Source of the DNA: Alistipes sp. | GTDB taxonomy: Bacteria; Bacteroidota; Bacteroidia; Bacteroidales; Rikenellaceae | NCBI GenBank assembly: GCA_017646625.1 | Contig: JAGCMF010000022.1 | Span: forward strand, 1-42,634 | Length of the DNA stretch: 42,634 nt | Direction of reading: 5' to 3' | Shown: positions 9,806-25,289 of the stretch, piece by piece | Numbering within the stretch: the stretch's first letter is position 1 | How the letters are laid out: the number at the start of each line of letters is the position of its first letter | The notes under the pieces: generated by a model | What the model was told of the DNA's origin: nothing | Database searches by the model: none | What the model saw: only the letters and a program-made list of their open reading frames with translations | Program-made: the position numbers and the translations under genes

Positions 9806-10573
9806 CTACTTCTTTGTCTTATGCTTTGTACGTAGGCGTGTTATGCCGTCGATGAAGCATAGTGGGTGTGTAGGTGCTCCAGGTAGCCATAGGTCTACAT
9901 GATACTTATCTATGAATGTGCGGTCCACAGCGGGACTCTCAGCATAGAGACCTCCTGATATAGCCTCCGAGCCGCATATGACAAGTATCTTTGGCTCGGC
10001 GATGGAGTTGTAGCATATGTCGAGTGCCTCGGCCATGTTGGCGCTTATGGGGCCTGTGAGCACAAGACCGTCGGAGTGGCGTGGTGAGGCGGTGAAGCCT
10101 ACGCCAAAGCGGCCAAAGTCGAAGTTCACATTGCCTGTGGCGTTTAGCTCCATCTCTACCGAGCAGTCGCCACCTGCCGTCACCTCGCGCAGCTGTAGAG
10201 CCTTGCCAAAGTACTTGGCAATCTCGGGGCGTATTGCCGATGTGTCAAACTTGGGAGCATCCTGGCCTGCGGTGACGATGAGGTCTTCGCGGCGTGTGGC
10301 GGCAAGACGGTGCTCGTTGGTGAAGTGTATGTTGCGTGGTGCGCAACGCTGACACTCGCCACAGAAGAGACACTTGCCCATGTCTAGTGTTAGAGGTGAT
10401 GTGGTGATGGCACCTGTGGGACATATCTTCGCAGCGCGTTCTATGTCACTCTTATCCTCGGTGTCTGTTAGGCGTGGAAAACCACGGAACTCCTCGGTTA
10501 GGGTTACGCCATCCAAATCGGGTATATATTGCCAGCCGTGGCTGCGCAGTATCTTTACTTTTCCAAATAACAT
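9806..10573 (-). CDS. Fused ferredoxin-like and small subunit of a hydrogenase-4-related complex
   Basis: 255 residues joining what are separate HyfH- and HyfI-like proteins in E. coli. The N-terminal part (1-100) is ferredoxin-like. The first cysteine trio is lost, but Cys51 (ICPTGAI) and Cys68, Cys71, Cys74 (CLFCGEC) remain, enough for one [4Fe-4S] cluster; Cys77 lies next to them. The C-terminal part (125-255) is NuoB/HyfI-like, recognisable by SPRHSDGLVLTGPIS. Of the four proximal-cluster cysteines only Cys137 (GDCSVE) remains. The others are Gly134, Glu203 (GSEAISGG) and Ala233 (PGAPTHP). The usual proximal iron-sulfur cluster is therefore very unlikely. It is the last gene of the rsmE-linked operon. 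Confidence 0.85.
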   Translation of the reverse strand: MLFGKVKILRSHGWQYIPDLDGVTLTEEFRGFPRLTDTEDKSDIERAAKICPTGAITTSPLTLDMGKCLFCGECQRCAPRNIHFTNEHRLAATRREDLIVTAGQDAPKFDTSAIRPEIAKYFGKALQLREVTAGGDCSVEMELNATGNVNFDFGRFGVGFTASPRHSDGLVLTGPISANMAEALDICYNSIAEPKILVICGSEAISGGLYAESPAVDRTFIDKYHVDLWLPGAPTHPLCFIDGITRLRTKHKTKK

Positions 10574-10618: not shown

Positions 10619-12133
10619 CTACAGGTCGTGACCGCAGTAGGAGAGGTTAAAGCTCTTGTTGTTTATTGGGAAGTCCGATATTCCCTCTGAACGTACGGCA
10701 ATAGCCAGGCCAAGCCAGTTATGAATGCTGGGGTCCTTAATCTTATACTTGGCAATGTCGCCATTTGCTGCCGTAAGTGCCACATGGCATATCTCACCAC
10801 GCCAGCCCTCAATGAGTGAGAAGGCGAGAGCCTCACCCTTTAGTGGCGCCTCGTAGTTTGGCGCAGGGAGTGTGCCCGAGGGTGTATATGTTGCAAGAGC
10901 ACTCTCTATGTAGTCGGCACTCTGAAGTATCTCGTCCATGCGTGTTGCAAGGCGTGCCATGACATCACCCTCGCCCTTCATCACTGGCTCGTGGTGTATC
11001 TTCTCGGCATAGAAGCCCCAGGGGTGTGTAGCGCGGATGTCGCGCATGTGACCACTTGAACGAGCTGCCATGCCGACACCGCCTATGCGTTCCATCTCCG
11101 CCTTGGGCACAAGGCCGCACTGCTCGAAACGTGTAAGCAGAGTGTGTGCCTCGCATATATCCTCGCGTACCTCGTTGTAGCGGCGACGTACGTCAGCAAT
11201 GTTCTTGCGTATCATGGCCACCTTCTCTGCGGTGAGAGGGTGGTTAGTGCCCATAGGGCGTATCATGCTCTTGCCAAAGCGGTTGCCACACCATGCCTGT
11301 GAGGTGTTGATGGTTACTGTACGCAGTGCCTCGCATGCCACCTGATATAGCTGGAAACCGATATCTGTGGCGAGGGCGCCTGTGTCGGCAAGGTGCATAG
11401 CTATGCGTTCCAGCTCTATGGCAATCATGCGTTCGAGCTTTAGCTCCTCGGCGATGTTGGTGTCTGTGAACTTCTCGATAATCTCGGCATATGCTGTAGC
11501 ATGACCTACCGCCGTATCACCAGCTATAGACTCGGCGATGAGTGTCTGGCGTAGACGGTTTTGTGAACGTAGCATCTCCTCCTCCACGCCACGGTGCTGG
11601 TAGCCGAGGGCTATCTCGAGGTGAAGCACCTGCTCGCCATCGCATATGAAGCGGAAGGCACCAGGCTCGATGATGCCTGCGTGGATAGGACCTACGTTAA
11701 CCTCATGGAGCTCGTCACCCTCGATGGTGTAGAAGGGGTAGCTATCCATTGTCGATGACTTGTCGCGACGGTTATGTGGGAAGCGTAGCGGCTTGAGCCA
11801 TGGGTGGTGGTCGAAGGGTATGCCATAAAGTTCGTGCATCTCACGTTCGAAGGGGTGGAACTGTGGGTGTAGTGCTGTGAGTGATGCCAGACCCTCGGCG
11901 TAGTAGTCGGGGATGAATGAGGTGATGAGCACCTCACCTGTAGTATCGTCGAGCAGCAGCATATAGAACTTAAGACCATTCTCTATCTCTGTTGCGAAGT
12001 AGTGACCCACATGGTAACGTGTGTTGCACATGCGGTCACGAAGGTCGGCATATAACTCTGCATAGTCAACGACAGGGATGTCGCTGATGGCAACTGCCGA
12101 GGCTCTATTATTTGTCGTAAGGTATAGTTTCAT
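10619..12133 (-). CDS. Large-subunit homologue of hydrogenase-4 (HyfG/HycE-like) without NiFe ligands
   Basis: 504 residues with the HycE/HyfG layout: an N-terminal 30-kDa (NuoC-like) domain to about residue 125 (FHPFEREMHELYGIPF), then a NuoD/hydrogenase-large-subunit domain. Family marks such as EIALGYQHRGVEE (H180, R181) and MIRPMGTNHP are present. In active group-4 hydrogenases the first metal motif is ER-x-CGxC; here it is ESIAGDT, with Ala204 and Thr207 in place of cysteines. The second motif DPCxxC is DPSIHN, with Ser469 and Asn472. All four Ni-Fe ligands are missing, so hydrogen chemistry is excluded on present knowledge. This matches the Ehr class (energy-converting hydrogenase-related complexes) as I recall it. 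It starts 4 bases after the preceding antiporter-like gene. Confidence 0.88.
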   Translation of the reverse strand: MKLYLTTNNRASAVAISDIPVVDYAELYADLRDRMCNTRYHVGHYFATEIENGLKFYMLLLDDTTGEVLITSFIPDYYAEGLASLTALHPQFHPFEREMHELYGIPFDHHPWLKPLRFPHNRRDKSSTMDSYPFYTIEGDELHEVNVGPIHAGIIEPGAFRFICDGEQVLHLEIALGYQHRGVEEEMLRSQNRLRQTLIAESIAGDTAVGHATAYAEIIEKFTDTNIAEELKLERMIAIELERIAMHLADTGALATDIGFQLYQVACEALRTVTINTSQAWCGNRFGKSMIRPMGTNHPLTAEKVAMIRKNIADVRRRYNEVREDICEAHTLLTRFEQCGLVPKAEMERIGGVGMAARSSGHMRDIRATHPWGFYAEKIHHEPVMKGEGDVMARLATRMDEILQSADYIESALATYTPSGTLPAPNYEAPLKGEALAFSLIEGWRGEICHVALTAANGDIAKYKIKDPSIHNWLGLAIAVRSEGISDFPINNKSFNLSYCGHDL

Positions 12134-22444: not shown

Positions 22445-22676
22445 TATCATGATATAAACTATTGAATAGTAACCCTGTAACGAACTGTGTAGTAAGGCTA
22501 TCTCTGTTCTCTGATGATGTTAGCGATGCTGTGTATTGCTATTTTACTGATTGACAGGTGGTTGTAGTGGTGTGTTTGGTGGTGTTGTAATTTAATGCTA
22601 TGTATGTCATGTGATGTAGGCAGCATTTTTGCAAGATTATATCGAATTAGAAATTGACACAATAATTATTAATACT
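22445..22676 (+). other. Long leader of the beta-helix lipoprotein gene
   Basis: About 225 bases between the promoter and the ATG, G/T-rich (for example GGTGGTTGTAGTGGTGTG). I see no riboswitch consensus and no clear open frame. A second promoter nearer the gene cannot be ruled out. Confidence 0.35.
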
Positions 22677-25289
22677 ATGAAAAAACTTTTTGGTTTATTG
22701 GCATTGGTACTCGCTGTGGTATCATGTCAGAACGACTTCGATGGCGCCAATGTTGGTGGCGACGAGGTTGCAGTGACACTGAATGTTGCTGTTCCAGATG
22801 ATGCTACTCGTGCTGCTGGTGAAGACAGCGCATTGAGTGGTCTACAGAACATCGACCTTGAGAATGGTTATGACATTCGCTACATCCTTGAGGTGTACGA
22901 TGCAAAAGACAATCTTGCAAAGCCACGTATCGTTAATCGTGAGGATGTTAGCGCAAGCACATCATTCGATCTTCGTCTTGTTCCTGGCCGTGACTACAGA
23001 TTCGTAGTATGGGCAGACTTTATCCCACAGGATCAGGTTGGTGATGGTGACTTCCACTACAACACAACTAACATTCAGGCAATCTCACTTATTGAGGGCC
23101 GTCAGAATGCGAATGATGAGAGCCGTGATGCTTACACATGTGTTCGTTTAGTTGAGAAGTTCCAAAGTGGCGCACCTGTCGAGATCGAGTTGAAGCGCCC
23201 ATTCGCGAAGCTTCGCGTCGTTACTACAGATATGAATCATCTTTATAGCGATCTTATGTCTGTAAAAGTTACTTATACAACACCTCTCTACACTACATTC
23301 AATGCACTTACAGGTGAGAAGGATGGTCTTCAGTCTGTTGCAAGCACTACAAAGGTTGTGAATTTGACAGCTGACTTCAAATATACTAACGAGGTAGATT
23401 ACAAGACAAATGGTAAGATGACCTTGTTTGCGGACTACTTCTTTGGTGCAAAGGATGATGCTATTCACTTCACATTGGATGCTACGGATGCAACAGGTAT
23501 GGATATCCCAGAAGTTTACTTCAACACAAACATCCCTGTTCAGCGCAACTACCTCACAACCGTTATGGGTCCTGTCCTCACTGACGCAGCAAATGTAACA
23601 GTTCGTATCGAGGATACTTTCGCTGGTACACATAATGTAGATGTTGTGGAGGCAAGTAACGCATCAGATCTTCAGGAGGCTATCGACGGTGCTGCAGCGG
23701 GTAAGGAGACACATATCGTTCTTGGCGGTAATATCAACCTTAACGACCTTTTGAGCGCAGGCATCCTCTCAACACGCGCCGCAGAGCCTGCTTATGGCTT
23801 GGTTATCCCAGCGGGCAAGGAGGTAACCCTCAACCTTAATGGTAAAACTCTCTTCCAAGAGAAGGCTTGCTCTGATCACTACTCTATGATCCTCAACAAT
23901 GGTAATCTTACAATCACTGGTGAGGGTACAGTCGAGTTCGAGAATACAAGTGAGGGCGGTAGCTCAGATTGGGGTACATACACTATCGAGAACCGTGGTG
24001 AGGCTGTGCTTACTATCGACAACGCAACTATCCGTCATAATGGCTGTGTTAATGGCGAGACAAATCACGATACAAACATCGCTATCCAGAACTATGAGGG
24101 TAAGGTTGTGATCAACGACGGTACTATCGCGTCTCCAGAGTTCCGTTCATTGCGTGACTTCACCGCAGGTGGTGAGATTATCATCAATGGCGGTACATTC
24201 TTGGGTCAGGTATGGATGCAGGGCTTAGGCAACGGCTCATCAAGCCTTACCATAAATGGTGGTAGCTTCTCACCCGATGCAGGTGGTTATGATGGATCAT
24301 CAGTATATATCACTAATAGCGCAAATGTTGTTAATGTAGCTATCACTGGTGGTATATTCAACACCAAGGTTGGTTGCTTCGATCCAAACAAGGAGGGTGC
24401 AAATGGTTGCATCACAGGCGGTACATTCACTACAGCAGCTAAGGAGGCTACTTCTGAGGAGCTTCTTGCTAATGGTTATGCATTTGTTGAGGGCGAGAAT
24501 GGCACATATACAGTTGAGAACGTTGGTCACTATACTGACGCAAACGGTAATTACCATATCACAGGCGTGAATGGTTGGTTGTGGATGGCTGATCAGAATG
24601 ATACATTCTTCCGCAATAAGACAGTTTACCTTGATAACGATATCGACTTTGCTGGAGTTGATATGCGCGTAACCAAAATGTTTACTCCTGAGTACTCCGC
24701 AACATTTGATGGTCAGAACCATACCATTAACAATGTAAGGATGGCTTCGGCATACGACCAGAACAACCAGGCGTTGTTCGACGGTTTGATGACGGTTAAG
24801 AACTTGACAGTTGAGAATAGTCATGTCTATGGTATGTCTCAAGTAGGTATTATCGGTGCAAATATCTTTGGTAGTATTGAGAACTGCCATGTAAAGAACT
24901 GTCGATCTTATGGCTATGTTCATCACGTCGGTGGAATCGTAGGTTTGCACAGCTGGGGCGAGATTAAGAATTGTTCTATAGAGAATACTAGCATCGAATG
25001 CTACTACTATGGTGCTGTTGGTGCTATTGCTGGTGCAATGAATGAGGTATCGCGTAATATTACTGGTTGTTCAGTTAAGGGTTGTCGATTGATCAAGGAG
25101 GGGCCAGAGGGTGTATATCCTGATTGGGACCCTTGCTTCGGCATTGCGGTAGGATATGCATATGCGCCGGGTACTTATGTGTTTAATGTAGAAGTTGAGA
25201 ATAACACTATAAAGGGTGTAGCTTCAGAGCAAATGTACGGCGAGGTTGCTACTGGTTCGACTATTACAGTCAATGGCGTTCAGTTGTAA
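22677..25289 (+). CDS. Large surface lipoprotein: fimbrillin-like (DUF6562-type) plus beta-helix
   Basis: 870 residues from the ATG at 22677; the frame is open upstream but only this start gives a signal peptide with lipobox (AVVSC). The N-terminal 320 residues resemble Bacteroidota fimbrillin/DUF6562 beta-sandwich proteins (VAVTLNVAVPDDATRA, YRFVVWADF, LKRPFAKLRVVT, LFADYFFG). From about 335 a right-handed beta-helix-like repeat region follows, with recurring ITGEGTVEF, IINGGTFLG, LTINGGSFS and ITGGIFNT turns. The end has GLUG-like steps (HVGGIVGLHSWG, GAVGAIAGAM). No catalytic residues stand out, so adhesion or glycan binding at the cell surface is the plausible role. It holds the only GAGCG word I found in the window (23753-23757). 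Confidence 0.8.
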   Translation: MKKLFGLLALVLAVVSCQNDFDGANVGGDEVAVTLNVAVPDDATRAAGEDSALSGLQNIDLENGYDIRYILEVYDAKDNLAKPRIVNREDVSASTSFDLRLVPGRDYRFVVWADFIPQDQVGDGDFHYNTTNIQAISLIEGRQNANDESRDAYTCVRLVEKFQSGAPVEIELKRPFAKLRVVTTDMNHLYSDLMSVKVTYTTPLYTTFNALTGEKDGLQSVASTTKVVNLTADFKYTNEVDYKTNGKMTLFADYFFGAKDDAIHFTLDATDATGMDIPEVYFNTNIPVQRNYLTTVMGPVLTDAANVTVRIEDTFAGTHNVDVVEASNASDLQEAIDGAAAGKETHIVLGGNINLNDLLSAGILSTRAAEPAYGLVIPAGKEVTLNLNGKTLFQEKACSDHYSMILNNGNLTITGEGTVEFENTSEGGSSDWGTYTIENRGEAVLTIDNATIRHNGCVNGETNHDTNIAIQNYEGKVVINDGTIASPEFRSLRDFTAGGEIIINGGTFLGQVWMQGLGNGSSSLTINGGSFSPDAGGYDGSSVYITNSANVVNVAITGGIFNTKVGCFDPNKEGANGCITGGTFTTAAKEATSEELLANGYAFVEGENGTYTVENVGHYTDANGNYHITGVNGWLWMADQNDTFFRNKTVYLDNDIDFAGVDMRVTKMFTPEYSATFDGQNHTINNVRMASAYDQNNQALFDGLMTVKNLTVENSHVYGMSQVGIIGANIFGSIENCHVKNCRSYGYVHHVGGIVGLHSWGEIKNCSIENTSIECYYYGAVGAIAGAMNEVSRNITGCSVKGCRLIKEGPEGVYPDWDPCFGIAVGYAYAPGTYVFNVEVENNTIKGVASEQMYGEVATGSTITVNGVQL

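Follow-up and report, generated by a model that had tools for sequence, protein, structure and literature searches.

Complexes termed energy-converting hydrogenase-related (Ehr) carry antiporter-like HyfB/HyfF subunits, HyfC, HyfE and a HyfG without NiFe cysteines, as described in passages of PMC12342949, PMC10284858, PMC6349859 and PMC4378227. All of these features are shared by a locus in the window, by which we mean the whole 42,634-nucleotide stretch of Alistipes sp. DNA that was analysed. The sections on Ehr in PMC12342949, PMC10284858, PMC6349859, PMC7304191, PMC4378227, PMC3569383 and PMC7894505 state that its function is unknown or only suspected, and PMC3569383, in its part on the subject, calls one complex Ehr despite its keeping four NiFe cysteines. 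Loss of the N2 (proximal) cluster in Ehr was not found stated in the portions of the literature searched, and may be in print in the founding papers (Marreiros 2013, Coppi 2005).

Respiratory complex I has NuoB/C/D/H/L/M/N homologues, the E-channel and the absence of NiFe ligands in common with the window operon. Its proximal cluster feeds quinone; the window operon lacks the N2 ligands and has no NuoE/F/G among its six genes. In MBH, electrons pass via the proximal cluster to NiFe, whereas in MBS, the Pyrococcus membrane-bound sulfane sulfur reductase, the proximal [4Fe-4S] cluster is itself the catalyst (PMC7684303, in its account of the two). MBS and the window complex are both complex I relatives that have lost the NiFe ligands, but the window complex is also without the ligands of the cluster at which MBS performs its chemistry. 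Compared with E. coli formate hydrogenlyase and hydrogenase-4 (Hyc, Hyf), it lacks the NiFe ligands, the proximal ligands and the C-terminal tail, its HyfH part has one cluster set instead of two, and its operon contains no HyfA, HyfD or formate dehydrogenase gene. The likeness to the Mrp Na+/H+ antiporter lies in HyfB and HyfF, which match NCBIfam MrpA/MrpD-type models below their cut-offs, and in a non-redox working mode that we propose for the window complex. Unlike Mrp, it adds NuoH-, NuoC/D- and NuoB/I-like subunits, and no small Mrp subunits occur among its six genes.

The operon runs from 17129 to 9806 on the minus strand and encodes HyfB, HyfC, HyfE, HyfF, HyfG and a fused HyfH/HyfI (Table 1), with rsmE upstream and purC (SAICAR synthetase) downstream. 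A sequence-only reading had described hyfG (10619-12133, minus strand, 504 aa) as intact and tightly packed in its operon, and the ORF and operon map agree. By its gene content the operon looks like a member of the Ehr class, since it has a group-4-like arrangement with antiporter-like subunits and a large subunit without NiFe ligands. In a quick tree with long outgroup branches, the window HyfG falls among rows (aligned sequences) from Geobacter/Geomonas, Melainabacteria, Planctomycetes and Verrucomicrobia. The Ehr assignment first made in the sequence-only reading is thus supported by operon layout, missing NiFe cysteines, missing C-terminal extension and tree position, with published Ehr complexes compared by description only.

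Table 1. Genes of the window operon and the residues discussed in the text
Feature	Position	Strand	Basis
HyfB-like antiporter subunit, 663 aa	15138..17129	-	PF00361 6.8e-56; NF005086 (hydrogenase 4 subunit B) 1e-154, below cut-off
HyfC/NuoH-like subunit, E-channel carrier, 305 aa	14201..15118	-	PF00146 6.6e-26
HyfE-like membrane subunit, 208 aa	13562..14188	-	NF008556 2.7e-11, below cut-off; no Pfam match
HyfF-like antiporter subunit, 472 aa	12138..13556	-	PF00361 1.6e-36
HyfG/EhrL-like large subunit, 504 aa	10619..12133	-	NuoC-like N-terminus and NuoD-like body
A204-G-D-T207, first NiFe CxxC place	11513..11524	-	Alignment with HycE/HyfG and L029-L031
DPSIHN (467-472), not a ligand site	10718..10735	-	Aligns with AATYANW of HycE and APSYVN of L029
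S498-Y-C-G501, DPCxxC place; protein ends three residues later	10631..10642	-	Alignment; 59/59 at 498 and 501
Fused HyfH (ferredoxin-like)/HyfI (NuoB-like) small subunit, 255 aa	9806..10573	-	
C51, C68, C71, C74, complete set for one [4Fe-4S] cluster, invariant	10352..10423	-	53/53 clade rows; 67/67 N2-less sample rows holding that part
D136, first N2/proximal cysteine place	10166..10168	-	D 67, E 2 of 69 N2-less rows
V139, second N2 cysteine place	10157..10159	-	C 50, A 6, G 4, V 3, N 3, S 2, T 1 of 69
E203, third N2 cysteine place (GxC)	9965..9967	-	D 65, E 4 of 69
A233, fourth N2 cysteine place (PGCP)	9875..9877	-	N 67, A 1 (window), D 1 of 69

The large subunit was aligned with E. coli HycE, HyfG and NuoCD and with three Bacteroidales group-4 hydrogenases that retain the NiFe cysteines and served as references (L029-L031). 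AGDT (Ala204, Thr207) stands in place of CGIC, in agreement with the sequence-only reading. That reading had placed the second motif at DPSIHN (Ser469, Asn472), which must be corrected, because this segment aligns with one common to hydrogenases; the true counterpart of DPCxxC is the C-terminal NLSYCG, with ligand places S498 and G501. The claim that all four NiFe cysteines are replaced therefore survives with two of the four residues renamed: A204, T207, S498 and G501 stand where group-4 hydrogenases have cysteines. HycE, HyfG and L029-L031 continue beyond this point into a tail, whereas the window protein has no such C-terminal extension. Displaced cysteines and a C-terminal processing site were looked for in the alignment, and neither was found; Cys500 is off register, between the two ligand places. 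With every ligand place non-cysteine, the window HyfG is, as judged from this alignment and as first proposed, without the capacity to hold a NiFe centre.

The replaced positions are themselves constrained. S498, G501 and D206 are each present in 59/59 rows of the clade that contains the window, and place 204 is Ala in 53/59, so the ligand-place pattern is not due to chance. A wider set (D206, N492, K493, S498, Y499, G501 and D503) is conserved in 59/59 rows of this N2-less clade and in 41-42 of 42 N2-intact rows. The HRG segment is kept, as had been noted; all 34 rows of alignment A3 have both H180 and R181. A cysteine persists at the first NiFe ligand place (ES[IV]CGD) in eight rows, a partial remnant found mostly in records titled Gastranaerophilales or Melainabacteria (L098-L100, L103, L111, L113, L127, L130). 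The nearest named relatives are MAGs called Alistipes (83% and 81% identity). Among solved proteins, HycE of formate hydrogenlyase and MbhL come closest to the window HyfG in sequence. Pfam assigns Complex1_49kDa and Complex1_30kDa to this subunit, and NCBIfam NuoD models match, all below cut-off; automatic annotation as NuoD/NuoC-like is therefore likelier than the hydrogenase label that had been predicted.

The overall picture of an Ehr-like complex without NiFe stood, but it had missed the loss of proximal [4Fe-4S] ligands and of one ferredoxin-type set in the adjacent gene. In the window small subunit, D136, V139, E203 and A233 occupy the places of the proximal ligands. The ligand set found in group-4 hydrogenases is thus absent, as is the N2 arrangement of complex I (tandem Cys, C, C) seen in E. 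coli NuoB and the set for the catalytic proximal cluster of MBS/Mbx. Two ferredoxin-type clusters can be traced in the HyfH part, the cysteines being allotted to one or the other by the 2[4Fe-4S] ferredoxin rule. All four ligands in the first set are gone, and the second set is retained.

This condition is general in the clade. Among the 53 of its 59 rows that have the small-subunit gene alongside, the proximal set is complete in 0/53, each row retaining no or one proximal cysteine, and the second ferredoxin set is complete in 53/53. At the aligned columns of the first ferredoxin set, 49 of these rows have no cysteine, three have one and one has three. Three further rows (L064, L066, L082) appeared to lack a small subunit, a reading rejected when the gene was found on another contig, likewise without the proximal set (3/3); in L087, L097 and L104 the contig ends shortly past hyfG. 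Of the 44 Ehr-like rows outside the clade, 41 have the full set of four proximal cysteines; L130 is cut off, and L107 and L112 show partial losses. Retention of these cysteines is not known to us as part of the published Ehr definition. The two partial losses, both in Opitutae, read DVCW (L107) and CACW (L112), with PGCP changed to PGWP and CxxC altered, and both ferredoxin sets are retained there. Loss of the first ferredoxin cluster is not diagnostic, as one or more of its cysteines are missing from the aligned columns in 14 of 40 non-clade rows, some perhaps through misalignment of the kind seen in L092. In one Cytophagales row (L092), the proximal set is lost (D, D, H, S), three first-cluster cysteines stand at the aligned columns and the fourth is one column off; this row is a possible intermediate in cluster loss.

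The residues that took over the proximal site are restricted. Across 69 N2-less rows (66 from the Bacteroidales sample described below, plus L064, L066 and L082), entropy at places 136, 203 and 233 is 0.19, 0.32 and 0.22 bits, compared with 1.51 at the second cysteine place, 1.17-2.74 at the first-cluster places and a column median of 0.98. One N2 cysteine is retained in 50/69 sample rows and 26/53 clade rows, and the acids are slightly more varied in the named clade (for example, EHDN, ADDN and DDHS). Such constrained replacement is not plain decay, and on these alignments the proximal site was switched to a specific acidic site. Three stretches are poorly modelled: residues 149-155 in the loop of the old active site, C-terminal residues 500-504, and residues 141-150 in the N2 region (mean pLDDT 61); VIA on the small subunit was confined to residues 112-255.

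To gauge spread, 295 Bacteroidales genomes were searched with the small-subunit alignment A2 (E 1e-30). Matches occur in 69 of the 295 genomes and 55 of 184 genera. We read 69 of 71 sample rows, leaving out two contig-edge pieces (G092:C158, G053:C193), and found the proximal set lost in 66 and retained in three (L202-L204), which keep 4, 4 and 3 cysteines of the first ferredoxin set. Three sample matches contain an in-frame stop (G246, G139, G105). The clade rows and this sample dispose of the idea that N2 loss is confined to one genome.

A large-subunit tree of 109 rows, made by a quick method and subject to long-branch warnings, places 59 rows in one clade with SH-aLRT 100 (L056 was excluded, and L038 and L210 were unused). 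Nearly all of these rows bear the title Bacteroidota or belong to the same order; by title, L079 (Phycisphaerae) and L087 (bacterium) stand apart. The operon of L079, whose record is titled Phycisphaerae bacterium, lies inside the N2-less Bacteroidota clade and points to transfer or a mis-binned contig. Next to the clade stand rows of Spirochaetes, Ignavibacteria, Melainabacteria and a Variovorax plasmid, and every one that could be read is N2-intact. In all, 243 plasmid records matched, of which four were analysed; in one (L034, Variovorax sp. PBL-E5), two Ehr-like operons lie close by each other, one with a HyfH/HyfI fusion and both ferredoxin sets and the other with a lone HyfI. A small-subunit tree of 113 rows was built from 135 columns of the NuoB-like half with ligand columns removed. 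It groups 65 N2-less rows with an SH-aLRT of only 81 on these few columns, and the N2 state requires four changes on it, so loss also occurred outside the main clade (L107, L112, L206). Additional N2 losses in Opitutae and in a separate G048 lineage are therefore likely on this tree. The G048 genome holds a deep-branching Ehr-like complex (L057/L206) with a stand-alone small subunit in which the proximal ligands are absent (DCDD), apparently through independent loss.

The membrane arm is largely preserved. Charges were compared, with E. coli Hyf rather than Mrp as the reference for ion-path residues, between N2-less clade rows (43-53 per subunit) and N2-intact rows (30-34); the N2-less membrane rows were grouped by clade, including the partial L056 where it qualified, and the small subunit was unread for L056, L087, L097 and L104. 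Most columns at least 90% conserved in N2-intact rows retain their residue in the N2-less group, and the E-channel residues of HyfC, like the lysines, glutamates and most histidines of HyfB and HyfF, are ~100% conserved in both. Conservation is 1.00 in both groups for HyfB E140, K219, K250 and E405, for HyfE K63, E151 and D176, and, over 46 N2-less and 34 N2-intact rows, for HyfC E128, E136, E187, D195, E201, E207 and D212. HyfF E127, K151, K210, K329 and E384 are also conserved. Other places have changed. Three in HyfF that are 91-100% conserved in N2-intact rows are altered in the N2-less group, the window included (37 from H to mostly Q, 217 from H to mostly Y, 226 from E to A or others). 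HyfB D297 falls from 1.00 to 0.84, and HyfC is relaxed at 26 (K, 1.00 to 0.57; R in the window) and 43 (D, 0.94 to 0.72; N in the window). Four residues mark the N2-less group alone: HyfE E58 and H143, HyfF H81 and HyfB H365. A second HyfB-like antiporter gene lies upstream of ten N2-less operons (L053, L068, L069, L075, L080, L084, L086, L088, L089, L093), which suggests complexes with an extra pump subunit.

Section 10 of PMC9474812 names proton-path residues of HycE that include E193, E437, R478, S283, D529 and D192. E193, R478 and E437 correspond to E156, R445 and E401 in the window, each 59/59, and H247 (52/59) and R358 (54/59, otherwise K) occupy other such places. D529 is mostly N in the clade, S283 is hydrophobic and D192 is I. 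S283 and D529 are canopy places; with these changes and the altered HyfF, HyfB and HyfC charges, coupling may be altered or weakened.

In pairwise comparisons, the small subunit has a dN/dS of 0.06-0.08 over the three pairs whose dS is finite, the large subunit 0.05-0.17 over four pairs, and rsmE 0.07-0.13. These values are rough, as dS reaches 0.86-2.85, which is high, and is infinite in two gene pairs. They indicate that the genes are under purifying selection, and a pseudogene was rejected given the intact ORF and low dN/dS.

The genome to which the window belongs (90.7% complete) has one NuoD-like (PF00346) and one NuoB-like match, both inside the operon, and assignment of the operon as the Q-module of a complex I is thus unsupported. 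It also encodes a single protein with an [FeFe]-hydrogenase domain and two proteins of NQR2/RnfD type, which we interpret as an Nqr and an Rnf, so that Na+-type pumps are probably present. Hydrogen chemistry and complex I therefore do not explain the operon. According to the part of PMC12578642 that treats them, Alistipes are among the sources of group B [FeFe]-hydrogenase reads in the gut, in line with H2 production by another enzyme. Absence of the maturation genes had been proposed as a check, and HypD, which alone represented the hyp genes in our search, was not found in this genome or in 36 others of the genus (0/37). HypD is present in 7 of 61 genomes searched, including two that carry the complex (G058, G048). 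Flanking ORFs of at least 110 aa were clustered for 44 N2-less loci with flank, and the clusters shared by four or more of these loci included no conserved partner gene; beside genus members they comprise rsmE (13 loci), an M3 peptidase (17 loci) and a small number of further genes. A gene belonging to a single cluster often stands ahead of N2-intact Ehr-like operons (13 of 34 loci with flank; ~5 kb upstream of hyfG in L108), and its single scanned example is a helix-turn-helix fused to a PTS EIIA-2 domain, and this cluster was not seen beside N2-less operons in the flank clusters compared. A defence system was considered and dropped, as PADLOC gave no match for the four subunits submitted. 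Elsewhere in the window, the product of 22629-25289 is large, carries DUF6562 and a weak match to the GLUG motif, and probably lies at the cell surface.

We favour, tentatively and with doubt slightly outweighing confidence, the reading that an Ehr-type complex, akin to group-4 hydrogenases and complex I, has had its electron path dismantled and works as a non-redox ion exchanger. The anatomy of the de-wired complex is well supported by the alignments, and from it we infer the mechanism. By sequence, the complex retains a single complete cluster site, the loop that carries the proton-donor glutamate, several residues of the proton path, the E-channel and most of the antiporter charges. Electrons would be unable to reach the old active site, so the complex would not pump by reducing a substrate there, and with NiFe and proximal ligands gone, none of the reactions of MBH, MBS or complex I would be expected at that place. 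The retained pump residues and E-channel argue that ions still move. The complex might thus perform ion exchange of the Mrp or complex I membrane-arm type, for example converting a Na+ gradient from Nqr or Rnf into a proton gradient or the reverse, in which the participation of Na+ and H+ would itself be conjecture. The acidic pair at the N2 place could join the proton path, and the single remaining [4Fe-4S] cluster could be a redox or oxygen gate, a sensor or a structural element. Of all the observations, the invariance of that cluster weighs most against a machine wholly free of redox chemistry, and its cysteines suggest that some electron transfer or sensing still matters.

The same cluster is the starting point for a rather unlikely alternative, in which the complex is still a redox pump: reduced ferredoxin or another partner would pass electrons through the remaining [4Fe-4S] cluster to an acceptor near HyfH/HyfI, and conformational change would drive the pump. 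The invariant C51, C68, C71 and C74 fit this idea, as do the NQR2/RnfD- and [FeFe]-hydrogenase-type enzymes of the genome. An Ehr of Geobacter sulfurreducens, whether N2-intact or N2-less, was more abundant with formate, and a formate dehydrogenase link has been suggested (PMC7894505, in its section on this complex). However, the cluster beside the old active site is gone, and it is this cluster that serves MBS as catalyst (PMC7684303). Relay steps in FHL are shorter than 14 A, according to the relevant part of PMC9474812, so one missing cluster should break the chain, and the 44 flanked loci offer no conserved partner. An almost certainly wrong alternative, a competent hydrogenase with displaced cysteines, has in its favour the single off-register Cys500 near the C-terminus; it was rejected as contradicted by the alignment, with four non-cysteine ligand places, no tail, HypD not found and proximal ligands gone.

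The drive might instead come from a non-redox reaction or ligand, the conserved GD[TS] / NKSFNLSYCGHDL pocket and the acidic N2 site binding a metal ion or metabolite, with ion movement coupled to this binding or to conversion of the bound species. We regard this as improbable: the seven pocket residues conserved across both groups and the acids fixed at the N2 place speak for it, but the neighbourhood points to no substrate or partner, the window has Ala (A233) in place of the site's Asn, and pocket conservation in N2-intact Ehr may reflect their own reaction. Loss of several cofactor sites and the changed canopy places would suit a regulatory or assembly remnant, in which the hydrophilic arm merely caps or stabilises the membrane arm without an active role. 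This we consider very improbable, because dN/dS is low in both hydrophilic genes, one cluster site and the former active-site loop are fully conserved, and 55 of the 184 Bacteroidales genera sampled have matches, counting the three N2-intact rows.

Stated more broadly, and with a shade more doubt than the exchanger reading itself, a Bacteroidota member of the complex I superfamily may have been turned from a redox pump into a purely protonic or ionic machine, with N2 swapped for a conserved acidic site and the E-channel and most pump residues retained. Plasmid relatives are annotated as NADH-quinone oxidoreductase or hydrogenase-4 subunits, and gut-genome relatives probably are too; such labels on gut relatives would mislead metabolic models. 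How electron transfer drives distant ion pumps in complex I is still called highly debated in the passages of PMC11496545 and PMC13324432 on this question. A widespread natural complex with the coupling channel and most pump residues but no wire would open the two halves to separate study and would reveal what Ehr can do without electrons at the active site. If the non-redox reading is true, ion translocation in the complex I superfamily can run without redox chemistry at the active site.
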